A stretch of DNA of 38,076 nt from Treponema sp. (GTDB lineage Bacteria; Spirochaetota; Spirochaetia; Treponematales; Breznakiellaceae), in the NCBI GenBank assembly GCA_031266075.1, contig JAISBS010000017.1, forward strand, positions 1-38,076, given 5' to 3'. The notes below the pieces were generated by a model. That model was not told the origin of the DNA and ran no database searches. It saw only the letters and a list, made by a program, of their open reading frames with translations. Position 1 is the stretch's first letter; the number at the start of each line of letters is the position of its first letter. The position numbers were made by a program, and so were the translations under genes. Below, one piece after another: positions 5,672 through 37,152 of the stretch.

Positions 5672-8041
5672 ATGAGCGATCTGTTTTCATCCCGGAAACC
5701 GGAGGGGCCTTTGGCGGACCGGATGCGCCCCCGGACGCTGGAAGACGTCATCGGCCAGGATCATATCGTCGGGCCGGGGCGGCTCCTGCGGCGGGCGATC
5801 CAGGCCGACCGGCTTTCCTCCATTATTTTTTACGGCCCGCCGGGGACGGGGAAAACCAGCCTGGCCCGGGTTATTGCCAATACCACCCGGGCGGCTTTTG
5901 AAAGCCTGAACGCGGTTCTTTCGGGGATCAAGGATATCCGGGAAGCCATAGACCGGGCCGACGAGCGGCAGCGGCTCTACGGCAAACGGACGATTCTTTT
6001 TGTAGACGAGGTTCACCGCTGGAACAAGGCTCAACAGGACGCCCTCCTCCCCTGGGTGGAGAACGGCACGGTGATCCTTATCGGCGCCACCACAGAAAAC
6101 CCCTTTTTTGAAGTGAACCGGGCGCTGGTCAGCCGGAGCCGGATTTTTCAGCTTAAATCCCTTGGCGCCGCCGATCTTATGGAAACAGCCTGGCGGACCC
6201 TGGCCGACAAAGACCGGGGCTACGGGAAATGGCGGGTTTCTTTTGCGAAAGGGGCCCTGGAACACCTGGTGGAAGTCGCCGGGGGGGACGCCCGGAGCCT
6301 CCTCAACGCCCTGGAGCTGGCGGTGGAAACTTCGGTTTCTAAAGAAGCCCCGGCTTCAGAAAAATCCGGCCCCGCCCAATGGCCGCCAGCGGAAGGGGAA
6401 GAAATCGAGGTTTCTTTTGAGGCCGCCGAGGAAAGCATCCAGCGCCGGGCGGTGCTGTACGACCGGGATGGGGACTACCACTTTGACACGATCAGCGCCT
6501 TTATCAAAAGCATCCGGGGCAGCGATCCCGACGCGGCCCTGTACTGGCTGGCTAAAATGGTCCGGGCCGGGGAAGATCCCAGCTTTATCTTCCGGCGGAT
6601 GATCATTCTGGCCAGCGAGGACGTGGGACTGGCGGATCCCCATGCCCTTTCGGTGGTTATTTCCTGCGCCGAATCCTTTGACCGCATCGGCTTTCCCGAG
6701 GGGAATTTTCCCCTGGCCCACGCCTGCCTCTACCTGGCCACGGCCCCCAAGTCCAATTCCGCCATGGCCTTTTTTGACGCCCTCAAGGAAGTTGACCGGG
6801 AGGACGCGGAGGTTCCCAACCACCTGCGGGATCCCAGCCGGGATGCCGAGGGCTTCGGCCACGGGGAAGGGTATGTGTACCCCCACGCATACCGGGATCA
6901 CTGGGCGGCCCAGCAATACCTGCCCTCCAGTCTCCGGGGCCGGGCATTTTATATCCCCTCCCTTACCGGCTATGAGGGAAAAATCCGGGAGGACGTGCTT
7001 GGGAAACGGGAACTCCAGGCTGCCATTGTTCTGGGAACCGCCGGGGGGCATGAAGCCGCGGAGGGGGAAATCCTCACCTGGTCCGCCGTGTCCGGGGGCC
7101 GGGAAGGCTGGTTCAAACGGCTTGAATCGGGCCGGAGCGCCCTCCTCCTTTCGGATCGGAACCGGATCTTCGAGGCCGCCGCCCCGGCCCGGCATGACCG
7201 GATTCTCATTCCCCAGGCCAACGACGGTCTGCTCCTCTGGGAAGGGCTGCGCCGGACTCCTGAGGGGCTTTGCGCCGCGCTGGTGGACCGCGAGGCGGCG
7301 CGGGAGGCCCTGCTCCGTTACGCCCGGGTTCTGGACGAGGCGGAACTGCCGGAAATCGCCGTCCATGCCGGCGCCGCCCTCCCCTCCCCCGATGAATGCG
7401 GCGCATGGTTTTCCAGCCCCCGGTTCGACCATATCCTCCTGCGGGAACCGTTCAGGCGGGGGCCGGGCAAACCTTCGTCCCGCCGGGAAATCGCCGCCGG
7501 GGATCCGGCCCCGGACGGAACGGCGGGGGTTTTCCGCGCGCTGGCGGAACAGGCGGCAAAACTCCTGGTTCCCGGCGGCGGCGTGGCGATCCTCTGTTCA
7601 CCCCCCGCCTTGGGGGAGCGGATTTCCCGGATTCTCCGGGAAGCCTGCGGCGCGGAGGAGCCGGTATGCGCCCTGCTGGAGGCCGGGGAAGGGGAATTTT
7701 TCTCCGGGAGTTCCGGTAAAAAACCGCCCGGAACCGCTGCTTCCGGGGGCCCGGATTTTTACGCCTGGGACGGCGAAACCCTGGCCGGAGCTTTTCGGGC
7801 TGCGGGCTTTGACGCGGAAGCCGGGACCATTGAGCAGAGTGAAGAACGGCCCCTTACCCGGCAGGATCTGGCGCTCTGGTTTGACCGGGACCATTCCCGC
7901 TGGGGCGCGTTTATCGGCGAAAAACTGGGGGCCGGGAATTTTAACCGGGTCAGGACCCTCCTGGAAAACCGGATTGCCGAGGGTCCCATCCGCTGGAAGT
8001 GGAAAAGTATCATGCTCCGGGCGGTATTGCCGGGGACTTAA
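5672..8041 (+). CDS. rarA: RarA/MgsA AAA+ ATPase with an extra C-terminal methyltransferase-like domain
   Basis: Residues 1-440 are a full RarA (MgsA, Mgs1/WRNIP1 family), an ATPase acting at stalled replication forks. Visible motifs are Walker A GPPGTGKT (55-62), Walker B LFVDEVH (109-115), sensor 1 GATTENP (138-144) and the SRSRIF arginine-finger region. A C-terminal MgsA tetramerisation domain follows, containing [12 protein letters not shown] and PHAYRDHW. Residues from about 445 to 789 are additional and absent from ordinary RarA of roughly 440 residues. They contain [15 protein letters not shown], which resembles the strand-turn after motif I in class I SAM-dependent methyltransferases, but no clear GxGxG SAM loop. 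No frameshift is visible; this is one continuous frame. Confidence 0.85.
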
Positions 8042-8081
8042 GTTTTCCACCGTTTTTTTCGGCGAATTTCCGGTAAACCAG

Positions 8082-8102
8082 GGCGGAAACCGCCGCTTTT
8101 TT
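8082..8102 (+). terminator. Rho-independent terminator after rarA
   Basis: GGCGG (8082-8086) and CCGCC (8090-8094) form a stem with loop AAA, followed by GC and six T (8097-8102). Confidence 0.7.
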
Positions 8103-8106
8103 CGCG

Positions 8107-8160
8107 TTTTTTCACATAAACCTAAAAAAAATTTGCATTTTTCCTGAACCTGTGAAAAAA
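8107..8160. repeat. Inverted repeat upstream of the H1-like gene
   Basis: TTTTTTCACA (8107-8116) and TGTGAAAAAA (8151-8160) are perfect inverted copies 34 bases apart, surrounding an A-rich stretch. It could be a regulator binding region or a structured leader. No clear promoter elements could be assigned here. Confidence 0.45.
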
Positions 8161-8227
8161 TGTTTTTGACCGCCAGAAACGGCTTGAAACGAAACGAATA
8201 TTCTTTCGCACCAAGGAGAATATTGTT

Positions 8228-8626
8228 ATGGAAAAAAGCGCCGGCAAAAAAAAGTCCGCCGCCCCCAAAAGGGCCGCCAGTTCTTCCGGTATTTCCGGTT
8301 CAAAAACACGCGCCGCCAAACCGGCGTCCGCCCCCAAAAAGTCCGCCGCCCCCAGAGCCCCGGCAAAAAAGGCTCCGGCAACGGAAACCGCGAAAAAATC
8401 CGGGGCTTCCAGGAATTCCCCGACAAAACCAAAATCCGCCGGACTGAAAGCCAAGACCCCGGCGAAAAAACCCCGCGCTTCCCCAGCTCCCTTGGGGAAA
8501 GGGGCCGCCCAAAAACCCGCCGCCCCGGCGTCTCTCGCCGTTTCGGGGAGAAAATGCCCCGAAAAGCCGGTGGCTCTTATTTCCCCCGCCGTTCACCGGC
8601 GGCCCCTTATCAATTATTCTAAATAG
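8228..8626 (+). CDS. Histone H1-like Lys/Ala/Pro-rich DNA-binding protein
   Basis: The 132-residue protein is almost wholly Lys, Ala, Pro and Ser with repeated KKSAAP, PAKKAP and TPAKKP units, like the C-terminal tail of eukaryotic H1 and bacterial H1 mimics (Hc1/AlgP type). Such proteins bind DNA through charge and condense it. No folded domain is evident. AAGGAG lies 11 bases before ATG. The gene is alone, with a terminator on either side, just upstream of the first flagellin gene. Low-complexity sequence means family membership cannot be proven from composition. Confidence 0.75.
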   Translation: MEKSAGKKKSAAPKRAASSSGISGSKTRAAKPASAPKKSAAPRAPAKKAPATETAKKSGASRNSPTKPKSAGLKAKTPAKKPRASPAPLGKGAAQKPAAPASLAVSGRKCPEKPVALISPAVHRRPLINYSK

Positions 8627-8657
8627 CCCCCCGGCCCCCGTTCCTCCGGGGGCTTTT
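8625..8657 (+). terminator. Rho-independent terminator after the H1-like gene
   Basis: AGCCCCCCGG (8625-8634) pairs with CCGGGGGCT (8646-8654) with one bulged C, followed by a T run to 8657. Confidence 0.75.
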
Positions 8658-8660
8658 GGA

Positions 8661-8694
8661 ACCCTCTGAAAATTTCAGTTTTCCGAGGGTTTTT
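8661..8694 (+). terminator. Second terminator-like hairpin before the flagellin promoter
   Basis: ACCCTC (8661-8666) pairs with GAGGGT (8685-8690) and is followed by TTTT. It stacks behind the preceding terminator and probably insulates the flagellin promoter from read-through. Confidence 0.55.
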
Positions 8695-8718
8695 CTCTCC
8701 TTATTTTTCAAAAAAAGC

Positions 8719-8746
8719 TCAAGTTTTATCCCCGATCTGCCGAAAA
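8719..8746 (+). promoter_or_regulatory. Sigma-28 (FliA) type promoter of the first flaB
   Basis: TCAAGTTT (8719-8726), a 12-base spacer and GCCGAAAA (8739-8746) resemble the FliA consensus TAAAGTTT-N11-GCCGATAA. It lies downstream of two terminators and about 110 bases upstream of the flaB start, leaving a leader of roughly that length. Confidence 0.7.
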
Positions 8747-8856
8747 GGGAAATGGTTAGGCGTATTCCGGGAAACGGAAATTCCGCGGTTTTCCGTTTTC
8801 GGGTAGGCCTGGCCGCCACAGGGGCACGGATGCTCCTGGACTCTATCATCACGGAG

Positions 8857-8872
8857 GATGATCATGATCATC
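8857..8872 (+). promoter_or_regulatory. Palindrome across the flaB start codon, with possible CsrA site
   Basis: GATGATCATGATCATC (8857-8872) is a perfect 16-base palindrome spanning the flaB start codon at 8864-8866 and overlapping the end of the GGAGG ribosome site (8853-8857). ACGGAGGATG resembles the A(N)GGA core bound by CsrA, and csrA/fliW lie in the same window. Folding would occlude initiation. This is inference from sequence. Confidence 0.45.
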
Positions 8873-9724
8873 AACCACAACCTGAGCGCGATGTTCGCTG
8901 ACAGGTCCCTCAAGGTTACCCAAAATAACCTTACCAAATCCATGGAGAAGCTCTCTTCGGGGCTTCGAATCACCCGTGCGGGAGACGACGCTTCCGGCCT
9001 TGCGGTTTCCGAAAAAATGCGGAGCCAAATCCGGGGCCTGAACCAGGCTTCCACCAACGCAGCCAACGGCATTTCTTTCATCCAGACCAGCGAAGGCTAC
9101 CTCCAGGAAAGCCAGGACATTATCCAGCGCCTTCGGGAACTGGCTGTCCAGGCGTCCAACGGCATCTACTCCGACGAAGACCGGATGCAGATCCAGGTAG
9201 AAGTTTCCCAGCTTGTGGACGAAGTTGACCGGATTGCCAGCCATGCCCAGTTTAACGGCATGAATATGCTGACCGGCCGCTTTGCCCGTCAAACCGGGGA
9301 AAATCTCATTACCGCGTCCATGTGGTTCCATATCGGCGCCAATATGGATCAGCGGGAACAGGTGTTCATCGGCACCATGACCAGCAAGGGACTGGGGATC
9401 CGCAACGTGGGGGACGATACCTTCATCTCCCTGGAGACCCCCGAAGAAGCCAACCGGTCTATCGGCACCCTGGATACGGCCCTGAAAAAGATCAACAAAC
9501 AGCGGGCCGACCTGGGAGCCTACCAGAACCGGCTGGAGCACGCAGTCAACGGCCTTGACGTGGGCGCCGAAAACCTCCAGGCTTCGGAATCCCGGATCCG
9601 GGACACCAATATGGCCAATCAGATGGTGGTCTATACCCGGGATCAGATTCTCGCCCAGTCGGGAACCGCTATGCTGGCCCAGGCAAACCAGCGGACCACT
9701 TCGGTCTTGCAGCTTCTTCAATAG
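8864..9724 (+). CDS. flaB: Periplasmic flagellar filament core protein FlaB (first copy)
   Basis: The 286-residue flagellin has the conserved D0/D1 ends (start [16 protein letters not shown], then [22 protein letters not shown]-terminal [13 protein letters not shown], ending VLQLLQ) and a short central part, as in spirochetal FlaB, which forms the core of the periplasmic flagellum. GGAGG at 8853-8857 with 6-base spacing fixes the start at ATG 8864 rather than the in-frame ATG at 8858. The central [20 protein letters not shown] stretch differs from the second copy and resembles a FlaB subtype with a longer insert. It is preceded by a sigma-28-like promoter and followed by hairpins, so it may be transcribed on its own. 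Confidence 0.95.
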
Positions 9725-9815: not shown

Positions 9816-10055
9816 GGTGTTCTTTGACAAAAACCTTCCGTTGATGCGTTCTGGTGAAATACCGGAACGCCCGGTACGGCGGTTCGGAACGTTCATTCAT
9901 ACCGGGGACGGTTTTTCCTCCCCCATGAATGGCCGTTTCGTGCCGTTTTAGCTGTTTCCGGGGGCGGCGGCGCGAAACCGTCCCCGGGGTGGCTATTCGT
10001 CCGGTACGGTCCCGACCAGGGATGGCCGGGGCAAATCGACACATGGAGGGTTATT
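9816..10055 (+). promoter_or_regulatory. Structured leader region of the second flaB
   Basis: The 331 bases between the flaB genes contain no credible gene. Besides the hairpins at 9744-9815, CCGGGGACGGTTT (9902-9914) and AAACCGTCCCCGG (9975-9987) form a perfect 13-bp long-range stem around 60 bases. CCGGTACGG occurs on both sides of it, at 9870-9878 and 10001-10009. ACATGGAGGG just before the start contains a GGA suited to CsrA. I found no convincing sigma-28 or sigma-70 promoter here. Confidence 0.5.
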
Positions 10056-10910
10056 ATGATAATTAATCACAACATGAGCGCGCTCTACGCCAACCGGGAA
10101 CTGGGAGTTACCCAGACCGACGTGGCGAAGAGCATTGAAAAGCTCAGCTCCGGCCTGCGGATCAACCGCGCCGGGGATGATGCTTCCGGGCTGGCGGTCT
10201 CCGAAAAAATGCGGAGCCAGATCCGGGGTCTGAATCAGGCCGAGCGGAACATTCAGAACGGCGTGTCTTTTATCCAGGCCACTGAGGGCTACCTTCAGGA
10301 AACCCAGGATATTCTGCACCGCCTTCGGGAACTCTCGGTTCAGTCCGCCAACGGGATTTATTCCGATGAGGACCGGATGCAGATCCAGGTGGAAGTTTCC
10401 CAGTTAGTTGATGAAGTCAACCGTATTGCGAGCCATGCTCAATTTAACGGGATGAATATGCTGACTGGCGCTTTCGCCCGGGATTCAGTGGTAGGCCGGA
10501 TAATGCAGCTCCAGGTCGGGGCCAACATGGATCAGAACGAACAGATCTTTGTGGGTACCATGACCGCCGCCGCCCTCGGCCTGCAGAACGCTCAAGGCGA
10601 ACTGGGTACTGTTTCCATCGCCACTCCTGAAGAAGCGAACATGAGCATCGGCGCGGTCGATACGGCCTTAAAGGCGGTGTCCAAGCAACGGGCCGACCTG
10701 GGCGCGTATCAGAACCGGTTTGAAATGGCCGCCGAAGGCGTCGCCATTGCCGCCGAGAACCTTCAGGCTGCCGAATCCCGGATTCGGGATGCGGATATGG
10801 CGTCGGAGATGGTAGATTTCACCAAAGACACCATTCTGTCCCAGGCGGGAACCGCCATGCTGGCCCAGGCCAATGTGCGGACCCAATCGGTACTTCAGCT
10901 CCTTGGTTAA
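10056..10910 (+). CDS. flaB: Periplasmic flagellar filament core protein FlaB (second copy)
   Basis: The 284-residue flagellin is a close paralogue of the preceding one, sharing the N-terminal motif [20 protein letters not shown], the segment [20 protein letters not shown] and the C-terminal [16 protein letters not shown]. The middle ([20 protein letters not shown]) lacks the TASMWFHIG insert of the first copy, so the two are distinct core subunits rather than a recent duplication. GGAGGG lies 5 bases before ATG. The leader is long and structured. A strong terminator follows at 10979. Confidence 0.95.
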
Positions 10911-29957: not shown

Positions 29958-31535
29958 ATGATGAATATGCCCAAAAGCGGTTTTCAGCTTGCAACCTTCA
30001 TCTTTTTTGCGGGGATTCTGGCCGGAACCCCCGGCCTGCTCCATGCCCAGGTTGACCGGACGGAACTGGAAACAAACCAGGCTCCCATTACCTTTATCAA
30101 CTACGAGGGGCCCCATGCGCGGATAGAAACCCTGAGCCAGATACGGAACATTGGTTTCGGTCCGGGGCTGGCGGTCAAATCCGGCACGGCACGGCCCGGT
30201 TCCCTGAACCGGTATTTTGTCATCCACGTGGTTTCCCCGGCGGAGGGCAACAAGCTTGACGCCGATATTTTCGGCCTGGGGGTCGATTCGGGAGTTGACC
30301 ACATCAGGAATCTCCGGCTCATCGTTCAGGGCTACCTGGAAGGGGCCTACAATTACCGCAGCCAGGACGCGGCACTGCTGGCCGGATATATTACCATCTA
30401 CAACGCGGTGTACCGGGGGGACTGGAATTATTTTTCGGGCCGCTATAAAACCCCGGTGGTGCAGAACCTGAACCGGGACAAAGCCGGAATTTCCATCCGC
30501 TTTGACGAATGGCCCGGCCAGACCCTGATGCTGATCCCCCTGGGGCCCGGCGGGTTGAGTTCCGTAGATACCAGTTCCCTTTCGGACAGCCGGGTGGTGG
30601 ACGAACTGCGAAAAGAGGATGACCGGGGGGTTGACCAGCGCCGGGACATGGTAGACCTCAAGGAGCGGGAAGCGGACGCGGCGGAACAGCAGGCCGCGGT
30701 TCAGCGGGAGGCGATCAGGGAAGAAGAACAGCGGATCGCCCAGGAACGGACGGAAGTGGACCGGGAGCGGGACGCTATTGATCAGGAACGCCAGCAGACC
30801 GCCGAAGACGCCGCCCGGGGAGAAGACACCCGGCAGCGGGAGCAGGAACTGGACCAGCGGGAAGCGGAGGCGGAACAGCGGGCCGAGGACCTGGATCAAC
30901 GGGAAGATGATTTGGCGGCCCGGCGGGAAGAGGCCCGGCAGACCGAAGAATTCGCCGAACAAAAAAATGCCGAAGCCCAGCAGGAGCGGGAATCCATTGC
31001 CAGGGATCAGCAGGAAATTATCGCCCTGGAAGACAGCCAGGTTCAGGCGCCCCGGGGCCTCCTGGGGGCCAGCATCGAAAACCTCGGCACCAGCCTGGGC
31101 AGGCTTCTGCGGCTTAACGCCGCCACCGGCGGGGAACTCCAGCGGTCGCCCCTGAATACGGTGAATGTCCGAACCCTCAGTTTTGTGGGGGGAAAGATTC
31201 TGGCTATTGCCGGGGAAAACCGGGGCAACGGCGCCATCCGGCTCATCGAGATCAACAACGGTACGCTGGAAATGACGAAACAGGGGGATGACGACATTCA
31301 TCCCGGCAGCCTCCTCTGGGTTTCCGGGGCGGATATTTTTGCCATCACCGTCGATTCGGGGGGGAATTTGCGCCTGGCCCGTTTTGACGCCAATTTGGTC
31401 AGGCAGGCCCAGTCGACGATCACCGTTCATCCCAATGCATCGGCAATCTTCCAGGAGAACATGGTTCTTACCCAGCGGGCGGACGGTTCGGCGGCGATCC
31501 TCAACGCCGGGGATCTGTCGGAGGCGGTAAAATAG
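29958..31535 (+). CDS. P83/100-family antigen-like protein with long coiled coil
   Basis: The protein of about 525 residues matches the spirochetal P83/100 family: signal peptide (ending LLHAQ), an N-terminal globular domain (about 30-210, with ITFINYEGPHARIET and GGLSSVDTSSLSD), a long Glu/Gln/Arg coiled coil (about 215-345, many QREQ and DQREAE units), and a C-terminal strand-rich domain. It is an exported, probably periplasmic structural protein of uncertain function. Several ATG codons follow AGGAG; 29958 (five bases) and 29961 (eight) are equally good. The leader is duplicated. A hairpin overlaps its stop codon. Confidence 0.85.
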   Translation: MMNMPKSGFQLATFIFFAGILAGTPGLLHAQVDRTELETNQAPITFINYEGPHARIETLSQIRNIGFGPGLAVKSGTARPGSLNRYFVIHVVSPAEGNKLDADIFGLGVDSGVDHIRNLRLIVQGYLEGAYNYRSQDAALLAGYITIYNAVYRGDWNYFSGRYKTPVVQNLNRDKAGISIRFDEWPGQTLMLIPLGPGGLSSVDTSSLSDSRVVDELRKEDDRGVDQRRDMVDLKEREADAAEQQAAVQREAIREEEQRIAQERTEVDRERDAIDQERQQTAEDAARGEDTRQREQELDQREAEAEQRAEDLDQREDDLAARREEARQTEEFAEQKNAEAQQERESIARDQQEIIALEDSQVQAPRGLLGASIENLGTSLGRLLRLNAATGGELQRSPLNTVNVRTLSFVGGKILAIAGENRGNGAIRLIEINNGTLEMTKQGDDDIHPGSLLWVSGADIFAITVDSGGNLRLARFDANLVRQAQSTITVHPNASAIFQENMVLTQRADGSAAILNAGDLSEAVK

Positions 31536-31555
31536 GCCCGGCCCGGGCCTGTTTT
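31534..31555 (+). terminator. Terminator-like hairpin after the P83/100 gene
   Basis: AGGCCCG (31534-31540) pairs with CGGGCCT (31544-31550), loop GCC, followed by GTTTT. It would separate or attenuate transcription into the four-gene unit downstream. Confidence 0.55.
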
Positions 31556-31580
31556 ACCTGCGGATATGCCGGGTAATACC

Positions 31581-32519
31581 ATGAAACGAATTTGGCTGAT
31601 TTTTTTTACCACCCTGGCCTTTGCTTCCTGCGGCAAAGGGATGAACATGAATTTTCCGGTAGAAACAAAGGTCCCCTCTCCCCTGGAAACGGTGCAGCGG
31701 CTTGCGGCGCTGAACCAGCAGGCGGCGGTTCCTCCCCTGACGGATCTGAGCGGCTACCCGCCTGAAATACGGCGGATCTTGCAGCGGGACAGCATCATCT
31801 TTGGCATGACCGCGGCGGATCAAAAGCCGTTTTTTTACCGGGATGAAGAAACGGGAACCCTGATCGGCCTTGACGTTGAAATTGGCTATGAAATTGCCAA
31901 CCGTCTGGGAGTCCGGGCGGTTTTTAACCGCGACGCGGCGAGTTTTGACGACGTTGTTTTGAACGTGGCAAACAAAAAGGTAGATGTGGCTCTGAGCAAA
32001 CTAAGCCGAACCCTGCGCCGCGGCGAACTGGTGCGTTTTACCCGGCCCTACATCACCTTCCGGCAGGCTCTTCTGATAAACCGGCTGGAACTGGCAAAGG
32101 TCATTCCCGAAGAAAACCTGCCCCTCTACATGAAACAGTTCCGGGGAATCCTGGCCATTATCGACAATTCGTCCTACCTGGGCTATGCGGAAAGCAATTT
32201 TCCCCTGGCCGAAAAAAAAGCCTACAACACCTGGCAGGAATGTATTGACGCCCTTTTCGCGGGCGAAGTGCTTGCCGCGTACCGTGACGAAGGCGAGATT
32301 CTCATCATCACCGAAACCAGAAAGGATTCAGGCATTATGATGAAACCGGTGCTTATCAGCGACAAACAGGACCCCATAGCCATGGCGGTGTCCCATGACG
32401 CGCCCCATTTACAGGAATGGCTCAATACGTTTCTGGAGGATTATATTCTGCAAAATGGCAGCGAACTTACGCCGGCGCGGCTGGTGAAACGGCATTATGC
32501 CCGGAGTGACGAAAAATGA
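31581..32519 (+). CDS. Family-3 solute-binding lipoprotein (amino-acid type)
   Basis: From ATG 31581 the protein has 312 residues, with a lipobox LAFASC giving lipidated Cys17. The SBP_bac_3 fold is visible: IIFGMTAADQKPFFYRDEET, GLDVEIGYEIANRLGV, KVDVALSKLSRTLRRGELVRFTRPY (pieces of the first lobe, including the ligand-contacting Arg region), then a second lobe with YLGYAES and ending in LNTFLEDYI. Such proteins usually bind polar amino acids. An in-frame ATG at 31566 is less likely because the signal sequence starts cleanly at MKRIWLIFF. No ABC permease genes are present; instead the stop overlaps the start of a DAACS-type transporter (ATGA). Confidence 0.85.
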   Translation: MKRIWLIFFTTLAFASCGKGMNMNFPVETKVPSPLETVQRLAALNQQAAVPPLTDLSGYPPEIRRILQRDSIIFGMTAADQKPFFYRDEETGTLIGLDVEIGYEIANRLGVRAVFNRDAASFDDVVLNVANKKVDVALSKLSRTLRRGELVRFTRPYITFRQALLINRLELAKVIPEENLPLYMKQFRGILAIIDNSSYLGYAESNFPLAEKKAYNTWQECIDALFAGEVLAAYRDEGEILIITETRKDSGIMMKPVLISDKQDPIAMAVSHDAPHLQEWLNTFLEDYILQNGSELTPARLVKRHYARSDEK

Positions 32520-34252
32520 CGATCCAAGTATTAAAACACCCGCTGGCAATTTTAATCGCCGTGGCGATAGGCGTTCTTATCGGACTGCTCAACGCCCCCC
32601 TTTCCGCCTTTTTTTCCGTCCGGAGTTTCGCGCAGATCATTTCCGTGCCCGGCCAGGTGTACCTTTTTTATCTGCAAATGACCGTCATCCCCATTATCGT
32701 GAGCGCGATTGCTTCGAGCATCGGCAAGATGATGCGGAACAAAAAGAGCCAGGGACTTATCAAAAAAATTTTTCTGGTCTTTCTGGGCGGCATTGCATTA
32801 ACCGCGCTGGCCGGCATGGTGGTGGGAATACTGGGCCGGCCCGGAGCGGGCCTGGACGAAAACACTCGTTCCCTTTTGACCAGTCTGATTTCTTCCCAGG
32901 CCGGCGAAAAGGGTTCGGAAATCCTTGAGGTCGCGATCTCCGGCGCAGCCGCTGCGGCGCCGGCAATGCAATCCGGGCTCGAAGTTTTTTTGACCAGCCT
33001 GATTCCCTCCAATATTTTTTCCGCCCTCGCGTTTGGCAGCACCATGGCAATCGTGTTTTTTTCCATCGTCTTCGGGATTGCCATAGGCTTTGTCAATGAT
33101 CAATCCGCGGACACGCTGATAAAATTCCTCGGCGCGATTTTTGAAACATTTCAAAAACTGGTCAGCGCGTCGTTGTACCTTTTACCCCTGGGGCTCATCT
33201 GCCTTATGGCCGGACAGATAGCCCAGGTGGGCGTCTTTGTTTTTATGGCCATGTCAAAGTTTATCATCCTGTACTGCGCGGGCACGGCGGTATTGTTCAT
33301 CGTCATAACGCTGGTAATCTGGGTCCGCTCAGGGGCCGCCAACCCTTTCAGGGTGCTTTCGCTGCTGTTTGAGCCGGTTATGCTGGCCTTTGCCACCCGG
33401 AACTCAATGGCTACGCTGCCAAGCGCCATCACCTGCCTTGACGAAAAAATGAATTTCGACAAAACCACGGTGAACCTTACCCTGCCGCTGGGAATGACCC
33501 TGGGGCGTTTTGGCAATGTTTTTTATTTTGCCGTGGCGGCCTTTTTTGCCGTGCAAATTTACGGCATCAATCTGACCGCCGTCCAGTATGGCATGATTTT
33601 TCTCGGCGTCATATTCGCGGGAACCGCTACCGCCGGGGCCTCCGGCATTGTAACCCTCTCGGTCATCAGTATAGTCCTCTCCCCTCTGAATCTCCCCGTG
33701 GAGGCGGTGCTGGTGATCTTTATGGCCATAGACCCTATCATCGATCCCTTTCGCACGTTTTTGCTGGTTTACGGAAACATTGGCGCCACCGCACTGATCG
33801 CGGACAAGCGGAAAGAATACGGCGCCGATGTTCTTTCGGTTATTGTCAGAAAAAACCCCGACCGCGAGCCTTTTCTTTACCATGACGGGACGGGAAACCT
33901 GGCGGGACTTGAAATTGAACTGCTGCGGGAAATAGCCTTTCGTCTGGACAAAAAACTGCTGATTCAGGAGGGGGCGCCCCTGGACGGGGTCAGGACAGAT
34001 ATTATCGGCGGCTGCGTTGTAAAAACAGAAAACTCCCCGCCGGGACTGATCTTTTCGCAGAGTTATGGATCCGTGATGGACCAAAATGTCCAGCTGGACC
34101 TCTGCCTGCTTCTGTCCCCGTTCAGCGTCGATTCGGTAAAGATCAATTCCATCATTAAAAATTTAAAAGACGAAAAATTTCTTGAAAGCAAAAATAAAAG
34201 CGCCGGGAGTCTTTATGGTAAAGAACTTGATTCAAAACATACGAACGATTAG
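32516..34252 (+). CDS. DAACS-type dicarboxylate/amino-acid transporter fused to a partial solute-binding domain
   Basis: Residues 1-430 are a GltP/DctA-like elevator transporter with eight helices and two re-entrant loops: HP1 with ATRNSMATLP (292-302), TM7 LPLGMTLGRFGNVFY (323-337), HP2 with GTATAGASGIV, TM8 with DPIIDPFRTFLLVYGN (406-421). Asp410 and Arg413, equivalent to the substrate-binding pair of the archaeal GltPh, are kept. The NMDGT motif of TM7 is replaced by GRFGN, and TM8 has Leu417 and Asn421 where GltPh has Asn401 and Asp405. Residues about 435-555 (EPFLYHDGTGNLAGLEIELL) resemble one lobe of the neighbouring solute-binding protein. In this fold the C terminus faces the cytoplasm. 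It overlaps both neighbours. Confidence 0.85.
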   Translation: MTIQVLKHPLAILIAVAIGVLIGLLNAPLSAFFSVRSFAQIISVPGQVYLFYLQMTVIPIIVSAIASSIGKMMRNKKSQGLIKKIFLVFLGGIALTALAGMVVGILGRPGAGLDENTRSLLTSLISSQAGEKGSEILEVAISGAAAAAPAMQSGLEVFLTSLIPSNIFSALAFGSTMAIVFFSIVFGIAIGFVNDQSADTLIKFLGAIFETFQKLVSASLYLLPLGLICLMAGQIAQVGVFVFMAMSKFIILYCAGTAVLFIVITLVIWVRSGAANPFRVLSLLFEPVMLAFATRNSMATLPSAITCLDEKMNFDKTTVNLTLPLGMTLGRFGNVFYFAVAAFFAVQIYGINLTAVQYGMIFLGVIFAGTATAGASGIVTLSVISIVLSPLNLPVEAVLVIFMAIDPIIDPFRTFLLVYGNIGATALIADKRKEYGADVLSVIVRKNPDREPFLYHDGTGNLAGLEIELLREIAFRLDKKLLIQEGAPLDGVRTDIIGGCVVKTENSPPGLIFSQSYGSVMDQNVQLDLCLLLSPFSVDSVKINSIIKNLKDEKFLESKNKSAGSLYGKELDSKHTND

Positions 34253-36359
34253 GGTCAAGCACGTCATTGTTTTTATCAACGTTATTTCCCTGGTTGTTTC
34301 CGCCGGCATTATTTTATTTTCCATGTGGATAAGCTCGGCGAAAAACGCCCAGGAATTATCGGAAGCCCTGATCAACGAAATGCAGGGGACCATCAGCAAC
34401 CGGCTGATAAACTATTTTAACCCCATTGCGGAAATGAACAGCAGAACCGCCTATCTAACCAGCACGATTTTTACCAGCCCCTTTGAACGGACAGAGCATG
34501 AGACCGGCCTTTTCTCCTACTATGCGGAGATTCTGCGGACCACCCCGTGGGTAAAGATGGTCTATTACTCGGATACTTACGGCAACCTGATGATGCTCAA
34601 CCGGATGGAAGACGGTTCTTTTTCAAAGCGAAGAGTCCGCAACAACGGGAAAAACATCTTTACCACGTGGGAACACGAAAATGTGGTGTTTTACGGCAAC
34701 TACAGCGATTCCGTTGTGGCCGCCTCGGAAGGATATGATCCCAGAAAACGGGGCTGGTATCAGATTGCCCGGGATCAGCGCAAGCCCTCCTGGTCGCCGG
34801 TCTATATTTTCGCCACCGACCACCTGCCGGGCTTTACCAGCGTCGTCCCCCTGTACGACAACAACGGCATTCTTTCCGGCGTAAGTTCCCTGGATATTAC
34901 GGTGGATGAAATATCCCGCTTCCTGGCGACCATACATCCCACGCCGGGAACAAAGCTCGCCCTTCTTGACAGCGCGCACAACCTGGTGGCGTTTCAGGCG
35001 TCCACGGGTGAAGACCTAAAAAAACTGTTTACCGAAACAATCGATGAAAACGGGGTGAATGTTTACGACATACGGCACCTTGATATGTTTCCCGAAGAGG
35101 ATCTGCGCTCCATACTGCGGGAAACATTAAACCGGGGCGGCGGATCACAGACCGTCAAATACAGCAGAAAATCATACCGCTCTGTCCTTGCCCCGACGAT
35201 CATCGGAAACGGCCTTGAACTTTTAATCGGAATAGTTATCCCCGAAGAAGATATTATCGGAAATGTAAAAAAGAACCTCTTGTATGTTACCCTGTTTTCG
35301 GTGGCGGTTCTGATATTTATCATTATTATCAGCTCCCTGTTTTCCAATTCAATCGCGAAACCGATGCAGCGGCTTTCCGAGGAAATGTCCAAGGTGCGAA
35401 ACTTTCAGCTTGATTCGGACATTGCTATCCAGACAACCCTTCTTGAAGTCGCCGATATGCACAACGCCTTTGAGGGGATGCGTATCGGGTTAAAGAATTT
35501 CAAGCGCTATGTCCCCTCCGATCTGGTGGCCCAGCTGATCAATAAAGACATCGAGGCAAAAATCGGCGGGGAAAAACGCGAGCTTTCCATATTTTTCAGC
35601 GACATCGCCAATTTTACCTCCATCTCCGAAAAAATCAGCCCCGAAGAACTGGTGCAGCAGCTTCGCGTGTATTTTGAAAATGTCTCCAAAACAATTTTGG
35701 ACAACAAGGGAACCATCGACAAATATATCGGCGATTCGGTTATGGCGTTCTGGGGCGCGCCGGTTCAAAACAACAATCACGCGGAAATGGCCTGCAGGAG
35801 CGCCGTCAATATTCAGGCGATCCTCCACACGATTTTCCGTAAATGGGCCAATACCGGCAAAGAGCCGTTTTACACCCGCATCGGGATTCATACGGGGGAA
35901 GTCATTGTCGGAAACATGGGCTACGAAGAACGGCTGAATTATACGGTGCTGGGGGATTCGGTCAATCTTGCAAGCCGCCTGGAAGGGGTCAACAAAGTTT
36001 ACGGCACGAGGATAATTGTCAGCCAGGGCACCTGGGAACAATGCAACAGCCTGTTTGAATTCCGCAGACTGGACAAAATTTCCGTCAAGGGCCGCCATGA
36101 AGGAATCATGATATACGAACTTTACTCGGAAAAAGACGAAATAGAAAAACCCCTGCGAAAGCTCTTTTCCTATTATGAAAAGGGCCTGGATTATTATTTA
36201 GCCCGTAATTTTTCCGAGGCCAAAAAATATTTTAATACGGTCCTCAAATACCGCCAAAACGACGGGCCCAGCAGAATCATGCTGGAACGCTGCCTGCATT
36301 ACCAGGCTTCGCCTCCCCCCGAAAATTGGGACGGCACTTTTGTGTTAAAGGACAAATAG
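34215..36359 (+). CDS. dCache-type membrane adenylate cyclase (class III)
   Basis: The 714-residue protein has TM1 (16-38), a periplasmic double-Cache sensor (40-345), TM2 (355-377), a HAMP-like linker and a class III cyclase domain (450-640), then a TPR-like helical tail (645-695). Catalytic residues are present: metal ligand Asp463 in FFSDIANF, Asp507 in IGDSVMAFWGAP, Lys503 and Thr577 as ATP-selecting pair, and Asn584/Arg588 in DSVNLASRLE. It should make cAMP. The sensor has Y174, R179, W181, Y182 and Y197, matching the amino-acid motif of dCache receptors. GGGAG lies five bases before ATG 34215, inside the preceding gene. Confidence 0.9.
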   Translation: MVKNLIQNIRTIRVKHVIVFINVISLVVSAGIILFSMWISSAKNAQELSEALINEMQGTISNRLINYFNPIAEMNSRTAYLTSTIFTSPFERTEHETGLFSYYAEILRTTPWVKMVYYSDTYGNLMMLNRMEDGSFSKRRVRNNGKNIFTTWEHENVVFYGNYSDSVVAASEGYDPRKRGWYQIARDQRKPSWSPVYIFATDHLPGFTSVVPLYDNNGILSGVSSLDITVDEISRFLATIHPTPGTKLALLDSAHNLVAFQASTGEDLKKLFTETIDENGVNVYDIRHLDMFPEEDLRSILRETLNRGGGSQTVKYSRKSYRSVLAPTIIGNGLELLIGIVIPEEDIIGNVKKNLLYVTLFSVAVLIFIIIISSLFSNSIAKPMQRLSEEMSKVRNFQLDSDIAIQTTLLEVADMHNAFEGMRIGLKNFKRYVPSDLVAQLINKDIEAKIGGEKRELSIFFSDIANFTSISEKISPEELVQQLRVYFENVSKTILDNKGTIDKYIGDSVMAFWGAPVQNNNHAEMACRSAVNIQAILHTIFRKWANTGKEPFYTRIGIHTGEVIVGNMGYEERLNYTVLGDSVNLASRLEGVNKVYGTRIIVSQGTWEQCNSLFEFRRLDKISVKGRHEGIMIYELYSEKDEIEKPLRKLFSYYEKGLDYYLARNFSEAKKYFNTVLKYRQNDGPSRIMLERCLHYQASPPPENWDGTFVLKDK

Positions 36360-36381
36360 GGCCAGGACAAGGAGGTCTGTT

Positions 36382-37152
36382 TTGCTGAAACATAGTCATC
36401 CCCTGATCGGCGTTATCGGCGGCGTGGGGCCCTATGCGGGCCTTGATTTTGTCCGCAATATTTTTAACAACACCCGGGCGCTGAAAGATCAGGAACACCT
36501 CAACACCCTTTTAGTTTCCTGCCCGGCCATTATTCCCGACCGGACAAAATATTTGCTTGATGAAGAACCGGTGAATCCCGCGGACGGCCTGTTTGAATCC
36601 GCCAAAATCCTCTATGCCGCCGGCGCGCGCCATGCGGCAGTTGTCTGCAATACCGCCCACTCGGATCGTATCTTTAAGCCCTTTTGCGGCATGGTTGCCG
36701 ATTCGCTGCCGGGTATGGTTATTATCAATATGCTCAGTTCCTGCGCGGATTTTATCAAGGAAAAACATCCTGAAATCAGGACACTGGGGCTTTTGGCAAC
36801 CAAAGGAACCTATAAAAGCCGGGTTTACAAAGAATATTTTAAAAGCGTCGAAGGCTTCACGCTGCTTGAGCCGGAACTCCCCGGACAGGATCGGATCAGC
36901 GACGCCATTTATTCCCTTGACTATGGCATCAAGGCCCATTCGGATCCGGTGCAGGCAAAGGCCTGCAATATTCTGCTCTACGAGGGCTTCCGCCTGCTTG
37001 ACCGGGGCGCCCAGGGCCTGATCCTCGGCTGTACCGAACTGCCCCTGGCGGTGGACCCCACGGATTTTTCCACCCCGGTCTTTAACCCCGGCCTCCTCGC
37101 CGCCAGGGAACTCATCCGGCTCACGGCCCCCGCCGCGCTGACCGGGGAATGA
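36382..37152 (+). CDS. Aspartate/glutamate racemase family protein
   Basis: The 256-residue protein has the two active-site cysteines of the family, Cys89 in VVCNTAH and Cys217 in LGCTELPL, and the N-terminal IGVIGGVGPYAG loop. These cofactor-free enzymes interconvert L and D forms of aspartate or glutamate; some relatives have other substrates. The start is TTG 36382 with AGGAGG six bases upstream, and it follows the cyclase after 22 bases. A short CCGCT/AGCGG hairpin with a later T run (near 37172-37206) may end the transcript before the convergent ligA. Confidence 0.85.
   Translation: MLKHSHPLIGVIGGVGPYAGLDFVRNIFNNTRALKDQEHLNTLLVSCPAIIPDRTKYLLDEEPVNPADGLFESAKILYAAGARHAAVVCNTAHSDRIFKPFCGMVADSLPGMVIINMLSSCADFIKEKHPEIRTLGLLATKGTYKSRVYKEYFKSVEGFTLLEPELPGQDRISDAIYSLDYGIKAHSDPVQAKACNILLYEGFRLLDRGAQGLILGCTELPLAVDPTDFSTPVFNPGLLAARELIRLTAPAALTGE

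Follow-up and report, generated by a model that had tools for sequence, protein, structure and literature searches.

We analysed a stretch of 38,076 nucleotides of Treponema sp. (contig JAISBS010000017.1 of assembly GCA_031266075.1; 'the window' below), in which four adjacent genes encode a solute-binding protein (SBP), an SDF-family membrane protein, a dCache adenylate cyclase and a racemase-family enzyme. In a metagenome-assembled genome (MAG) that is 70% complete and belongs to the order of Treponema, the window is contig C27; the named relatives closest to it are Treponema/Spirochaetaceae MAGs. Related loci come mainly from MAGs with titles indicating termite guts and rumens, and a termite origin is presumed from the MAG isolate codes. 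Based on gene content, conservation, gene fusions and residue patterns, we favour, with a probability of about 0.58, the reading that the four genes encode one transporter-coupled amino-acid sensor with cyclic AMP (cAMP) output. The features of the locus are the following:

31528..31556, plus strand: 13-bp terminator-like hairpin spanning the stop codon of P83/100, the gene 5' of the unit
31581..32519, plus strand: gene 1, SBP lipoprotein, 312 amino acids; ATG start, with an in-frame ATG also at 31566
32516-34252, plus strand: gene 2, SDF protein, whole open reading frame (ORF); ATG start
32516..33808, plus strand: membrane part of gene 2, SDF/DAACS (SLC1-type) fold, based on Pfam (SDF, 5e-70), the residue table and the tree
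33809..34252, plus strand: C-terminal domain of gene 2, predicted cytoplasmic half of a family-3 SBP (lobe 1; lobe 2 missing)
34215..36359, plus strand: gene 3, first transmembrane segment (TM1), dCache_1AA domain, TM2/HAMP-like region and putative class IIIb adenylate cyclase; ATG start
34734..34760, plus strand: dCache amino-acid motif YDPRKRGWY, with the Asp codon at 34893-34895
35577..36104, plus strand: class III nucleotide cyclase catalytic domain
36382..37152, plus strand: gene 4, Asp/Glu/cysteate racemase-family enzyme; TTG start, AAGGAGG just upstream

The SBP and SDF genes share a 4-base ATGA overlap, the SDF and cyclase genes overlap by 38 bases, and 22 bases separate the cyclase from the racemase. 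Pfam matches are SBP_bac_3 (E 6e-19), SDF (5e-70), Guanylate_cyc (5e-27) together with dCache_1 (2e-10), and Asp_Glu_race (2e-23). ORFs, sequence and Pfam thus agree with the first-pass annotation, which had described these four families as one packed unit with the same three junctions. The hairpin at the end of the P83/100 gene (-18.8 kcal/mol, z -3.2) is consistent with the unit beginning at the SBP gene. A scan 5' of the SBP gene gave no convincing sigma-70 promoter match, and no clear hairpin of an intrinsic terminator was found 3' of the racemase gene, where the neighbour is an opposite-strand gene, ligA-like by its HHH and BRCT domains.

Concerning conservation, we searched 197 genomes of the order with the SDF protein as query, scanned named genomes (54 loci, four of them distant) and surveyed the gene content of the window and 50 loci with hidden Markov models (HMMs). 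In the HMM survey the full set of four genes is present in 33 of the 41 sufficiently complete Spirochaetota loci, which confirms the co-occurrence across spirochetes that had been proposed as a check. The order is SBP-SDF=cyclase-racemase, with a single ORF for SDF and cyclase, in 18 loci; SBP-SDF-cyclase-racemase as separate genes in 11 (12 counting L070, in which the SBP is split); and cyclase-SBP-SDF-racemase in two. In one further locus (L065, the same as L042:6962-8692) the SDF protein carries a leftover cyclase tail, a relic of an earlier fusion, even though the racemase is followed by an intact cyclase. Eight loci are incomplete though not cut by a contig end: three have only SBP and SDF (L066, L067 and L093), two have no racemase (L068 and L072), in two the cyclase is replaced (L058 and L059), and one (L096, the same as L047) is a decayed copy with SBP, SDF and racemase fragments. 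The spirochete-type SBP-SDF pairs of L066 and L067 are found in MAGs labelled Chitinispirillales and Candidatus Adiutrix, by lateral transfer or misbinning.

In the order-wide search, close SDF relatives were found in 12 other genomes, besides one decayed copy. The neighbourhoods in most of these 12 hold the same four genes, in the order of the window or rearranged (cyclase first in G100, racemase ahead of cyclase in G192); in G123 only SBP and SDF are present, and the G188 contig stops after the cyclase. SBP-SDF-cyclase is also present in another family and class of the phylum (G229 and G219), with a racemase in G229; in G219 the racemase would fall past the contig edge. G405, likewise from elsewhere in the phylum, has the order SDF-SBP-[SDF=cyclase]-racemase. 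Across different families the unit proteins share about 30-40% identity. None of the 19 ordinary SDF genes examined (16 from the same order, three from other phyla) adjoins an SBP or a cyclase of these types (0/19). A racemase-family neighbour lies within 1.5 kb of four of the 19 (L021, L025, L030 and L034), a hint of a wider transporter-racemase pairing. No plasmid homologues of the same architecture were found at 80% query coverage.

That four unrelated genes came to lie together by chance or by selfish transfer is scarcely credible. The data are from MAGs, contigs of which can be misbinned, and L066 and L067, singled out as possible transfers or binning errors, carry the SBP-SDF pair under other phylum labels; however, the same set recurs in different families at the identity given above, in rearranged orders and as fusions, and the ordinary SDF genes are never adjoined by an SBP or cyclase of these families. 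Chance neighbourhood was rejected on conservation, rearrangement and fusion, and the recurrence of the gene set in relatives bears out one functional unit.

The membrane part of gene 2 has the PF00375 fold (E 5e-70): the HP1, HP2 and TM8 residues are conserved and D394, R397 and T398 are retained (residue numbers are those of GltPh, transferred by motif alignment). We compared 52 members of the clade and, from the same order, 15 ordinary SDF proteins, using the sets described for Na+ coupling ([S/T]92-93, N310, [M/S]311, [D/E]312, [D/E]405) and for H+ coupling (hydrophobic 92, L311, N405) (PMC12668577). The ordinary proteins keep the Na+ set, except for Leu at 311 in two, and are nearly invariant at T92, S93, N310, D312, N401 and D405. 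In the clade the Na+ set is lost: T92 is replaced by M/C/G/V, S93 by L/I/M, N310 by L/G/A, M311 by R, D312 by F/Y/I and D405 by N. The H+ set is incomplete: N405 is present in 51/51 and position 92 is mostly non-polar, yet position 311 is Arg in 51/51. This Arg forms, with Asn at 314 (50/51), a clade-specific TM7 motif, RxGN, which reads G-R-F-G-N in the window (Arg331, codon 33506-33508). By position, R311 would occupy the site where M311 points at the substrate, and it may stand in for a sodium ion or bind a carboxylate.

A standard Na+ or H+ DAACS symporter is ruled out by this residue table. Of the 'DAACS-type transporter' of the first-pass annotation the SDF fold therefore stands and the standard symporter does not; since every Na+-coupling residue is lost, the H+ set is incomplete and the protein has RxGN in TM7, the import step, as concentrative uptake, is not supported. 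It could be supposed that transport is wholly lost. The SDF protein would then serve purely as a receptor or an assembly subunit, with the SBP loading it and the cyclase as its readout, and the racemase would act on amino acid that enters otherwise. Such a loss would fit the replacement of all Na+-site residues, the incomplete H+ set, the loss of N401 (see below), the invariant Arg at the M311 position and a degenerate fused SDF protein in G405, and it has a precedent in yeast Ssy1, an amino-acid receptor evolved from transporters (PMC12958826). We consider it improbable, because the conserved HP1/HP2 gate regions and D394/R397/T398 suggest that a substrate-binding, perhaps moving, transport domain has been kept.

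The C-terminal domain of gene 2 comprises the 147 residues after TM8, which can be aligned to the first half of the SBP from the same unit. A Pfam scan of this domain gave no match; profile-profile comparison matches it to the co-encoded SBP (E 5e-9), and a PDB profile match has E 2e-5. Its AlphaFold model (pLDDT 81) best matches single-lobe constructs, lobe 1 of TmArgBP (E 5e-8). As one of these structures contains bound arginine, a single lobe is able to hold an amino acid. The domain consists of lobe 1 only, and no TM segment follows TM8. The C-terminus of SDF proteins is cytoplasmic; the domain is therefore predicted to be cytoplasmic, where it cannot capture substrate outside. The fusion proteins likewise need the SDF C-terminus inside, because the cyclase must be cytoplasmic. 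Topology and the missing lobe 2 rule out a periplasmic second binding domain: the 'second binding domain' of the first-pass annotation is really SBP-like, but it is half an SBP and on the cytoplasmic side. It is limited to the termite-type clade and is not found in the fused forms; from this distribution, it may serve as a docking or cytoplasmic sensing element in place of the covalent link.

On the SDF tree, SDF=cyclase fusions occupy at least three separate positions (rumen clade, L061/L064 and G405); the tree is a quick one with long branches, so that the pattern may reflect fusion or fission. The fused ORFs have about 1070-1250 amino acids in the rumen clade and L061/L064, some being cut by contig ends, and 1235 in G405. 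G405 (L110:3272-6979 and 7795-9135) has both a standalone SDF protein with the R-x-G-N motif and a degenerate SDF protein fused to the dCache cyclase, in which nearly every family residue is lost. A different partner is seen in L058:1047-3176 and L059:3884-6022, where a dCache methyl-accepting chemotaxis protein lies 5' of the SBP with overlapping ORFs; these units contain SBP, SDF and racemase and no cyclase (the L058 contig is short). The chemoreceptors keep R, W and D of the amino-acid motif and have F for the second Y and Y or W as the first aromatic. The fusions and the chemoreceptor swap, neither of which the first-pass annotation had noted, speak for the SDF protein being a component of the sensor, and they are the strongest hints that it acts with a dCache receptor, irrespective of the output. 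Kosmotogaceae (Thermotogota; L098:240-2303) provide another, distant link between SBP and SDF: one ORF there has a domain resembling SBP_bac_3 together with a TM segment and an SDF domain that lacks the NMDGT motif.

The same fusions bear on another explanation, a nutrient-uptake operon, in which SBP and SDF would form an SBP-dependent, ion-uncoupled carrier (facilitator or exchanger), the racemase would pull substrate in, and the dCache cyclase would sense the same amino acid independently, without touching the carrier. SBP-SDF pairs occur without a cyclase (L066, L067 and L093), ion-uncoupled glutamate transporter relatives adjoin amino-acid enzymes (PMC12668577), and racemase-family genes adjoin 4/19 ordinary SDF genes, all of which speaks for it. 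Repeated SDF=cyclase fusion is hard to explain without contact, however, as is the degenerate SDF protein of G405, kept solely as fusion partner of a cyclase, and we regard an uptake operon as rather doubtful.

The dCache domains of the unit cyclases contain Y, R, W and D of the dCache_1AA motif Y...R.WY...D in 43/43 and the second Y in 42/43; these correspond to Y121, R126, W128, Y129 and D173 of PctA (PMC11237719, PMC10104139). The dCache model matches PctA, PctB, Mlp24 and other amino-acid chemoreceptor domains, and of seven further cyclases examined from the genome, none has the motif within the flanks retrieved. In the catalytic domain the two metal Asp, the Lys/Thr purine pair and the Asn/Arg transition-state pair of class III cyclases (D462, K502, D506, T576, N583 and R587) are invariant wherever the sequence is present. 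The enzyme, which we take to be of class IIIb, is supported by these residues as an ATP user with predicted cAMP output, as had been claimed. The SBP has a family-3 profile match, PDB profile matches to amino-acid SBPs and both amino-acid anchors: Arg147 (codon 32019-32021; 44/44 relatives), presumably the alpha-carboxylate Arg of HisJ/LAO-type proteins, and Asp236 (codon 32286-32288; 43/44), presumably the alpha-amino Asp. The racemase has both catalytic Cys in 36/36 (codons 36646-36648 and 37030-37032), as well as the Arg52/Lys182 equivalents (36/36), which correspond to Arg48/Lys164 of Pyrococcus aspartate racemase. It matches TIGR00035 above the cut-off; the CuyB cysteate racemase model is its best NCBIfam match, yet below the cut-off. 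Taken together, the residues kept in SBP and racemase suggest an alpha-amino acid with an acidic side chain. The amino-acid ligand of the first-pass annotation is thus supported by SBP, dCache domain and racemase, and its acidic nature is made probable by Arg52/Lys182 and by SDF Asp394/Arg397. The first-pass annotation had suggested a D-isomer as a possible ligand; in published work, no binding of D-amino acids was found for the related dCache_1AA domains tested (PMC11237719).

From these observations we infer a physical complex in the species of the window, the identity of the ligand, the direction of control and transport. Outside the inner membrane, the lipoprotein SBP would bind an alpha-amino acid, probably one like Asp or Glu, and the loaded SBP would hand it to the SDF protein or dock on it. 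The SDF protein would contact the dCache cyclase via its cytoplasmic C-terminus (the two are separate in the window and one polypeptide in relatives) and set its responsiveness, as DctA does for DcuS. The dCache domain would also bind an amino acid directly, and the cyclase would produce cAMP. The racemase would interconvert the amino acid that reaches the cytoplasm, and could hold the imported isomer low and so pull it down a gradient.

Several points weigh against the sensor. N401, the alpha-carboxylate anchor of the SDF transporter family, is lost in 49/51 clade members, with I/L instead, which makes substrate binding by the SDF protein uncertain. The SBP-SDF pairs without a cyclase in L066, L067 and L093 may have a transport role of their own. 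The genome has nine cyclase matches (eight above the cut-off) and six cyclic-nucleotide-binding proteins. Pairwise distances of the four proteins are correlated with r=0.98-0.99 (28 loci), which speaks for joint inheritance and in favour of the sensor, but such a value would also follow from vertical co-descent of any four genes and is no proof of contact.

A more specific form of the sensor is put forward tentatively, and we would not bet on it: an SBP-gated transceptor, a new receptor class in which a protein of SLC1/SDF fold, no longer an ion-coupled transporter, is loaded by a periplasmic SBP and controls an adenylate cyclase or chemoreceptor in one complex, with the racemase closing the loop. 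If the sensor reading is true, a glutamate-transporter-like SLC1-fold protein would join the short list of transporters serving as sensors, this would be the first SBP-linked SDF system, and cAMP signalling in gut spirochetes, where cAMP inputs appear little studied, would have an amino-acid input. The natural SDF-cyclase fusions make the signalling contact directly testable, and the Arg and Asn that replace the NMDGT sodium motif would be a natural experiment on ion coupling in glutamate transporters.

Elsewhere in the window, a Termite-flg RNA (9931-10036) lies directly 5' of a flagellin gene (10056-10910), and an ORF for an MgsA/RarA-like AAA ATPase (5672-8041) has a C-terminal extension of about 350 residues without a Pfam match.

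Compared with known systems, the single parts of the unit are all known, and what appears to be undescribed is their combination, the fusion of an SLC1 fold to a cyclase and the RxGN subclade. No described system with any of the three was found in the open-access literature searched, which is weak evidence, as most subscription journals lie outside it. The unit resembles TRAP/TTT transporters (PMC5812351) in pairing an SBP with a secondary-type carrier, but its carrier has the SDF fold and its SBP is of the family-3 amino-acid type; Pfam found no DctQ/DctM or TctA/TctB subunits in the unit, PF00375 being the only membrane subunit. The dCache domain has the full amino-acid motif and fold of PctA/B/C, Mlp24 and Tlp3 (PMC11237719), whereas here the output enzyme is a class III adenylate cyclase and the partners are an SBP and an SDF protein. 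The ion-uncoupled glutamate transporter homologues (PMC12668577) have likewise lost the ion-coupling signatures and adjoin an amino-acid enzyme; unlike them, the SDF protein of the unit has R311, F312, N314 and N405, has lost N401 and has signalling partners. A transporter fold fused to a signalling enzyme is also found in the SLC5-histidine kinase transceptor CbrA (PMC7096432, PMC13022988) and in the Kuenenia Amt-histidine kinase (PMC5764959), but here the fold is SLC1-type, the enzyme is an adenylate cyclase and not a kinase, and a second periplasmic sensor (dCache) and an external SBP are present. In Escherichia coli, DctA regulates DcuS through a cytoplasmic C-terminal helix, independently of transport (PMC8307970). 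As there (PMC8307970, PMC4280142), a DAACS-family membrane protein is paired with a PAS/Cache-type periplasmic sensor, and by analogy a contact of this type in the unit is suggested, indirectly, by the fusion in relatives; the unit differs from DctA-DcuS in its cAMP (or chemotaxis) output, its SBP and racemase, the outright gene fusion in relatives and the loss of the ion-coupling residues.

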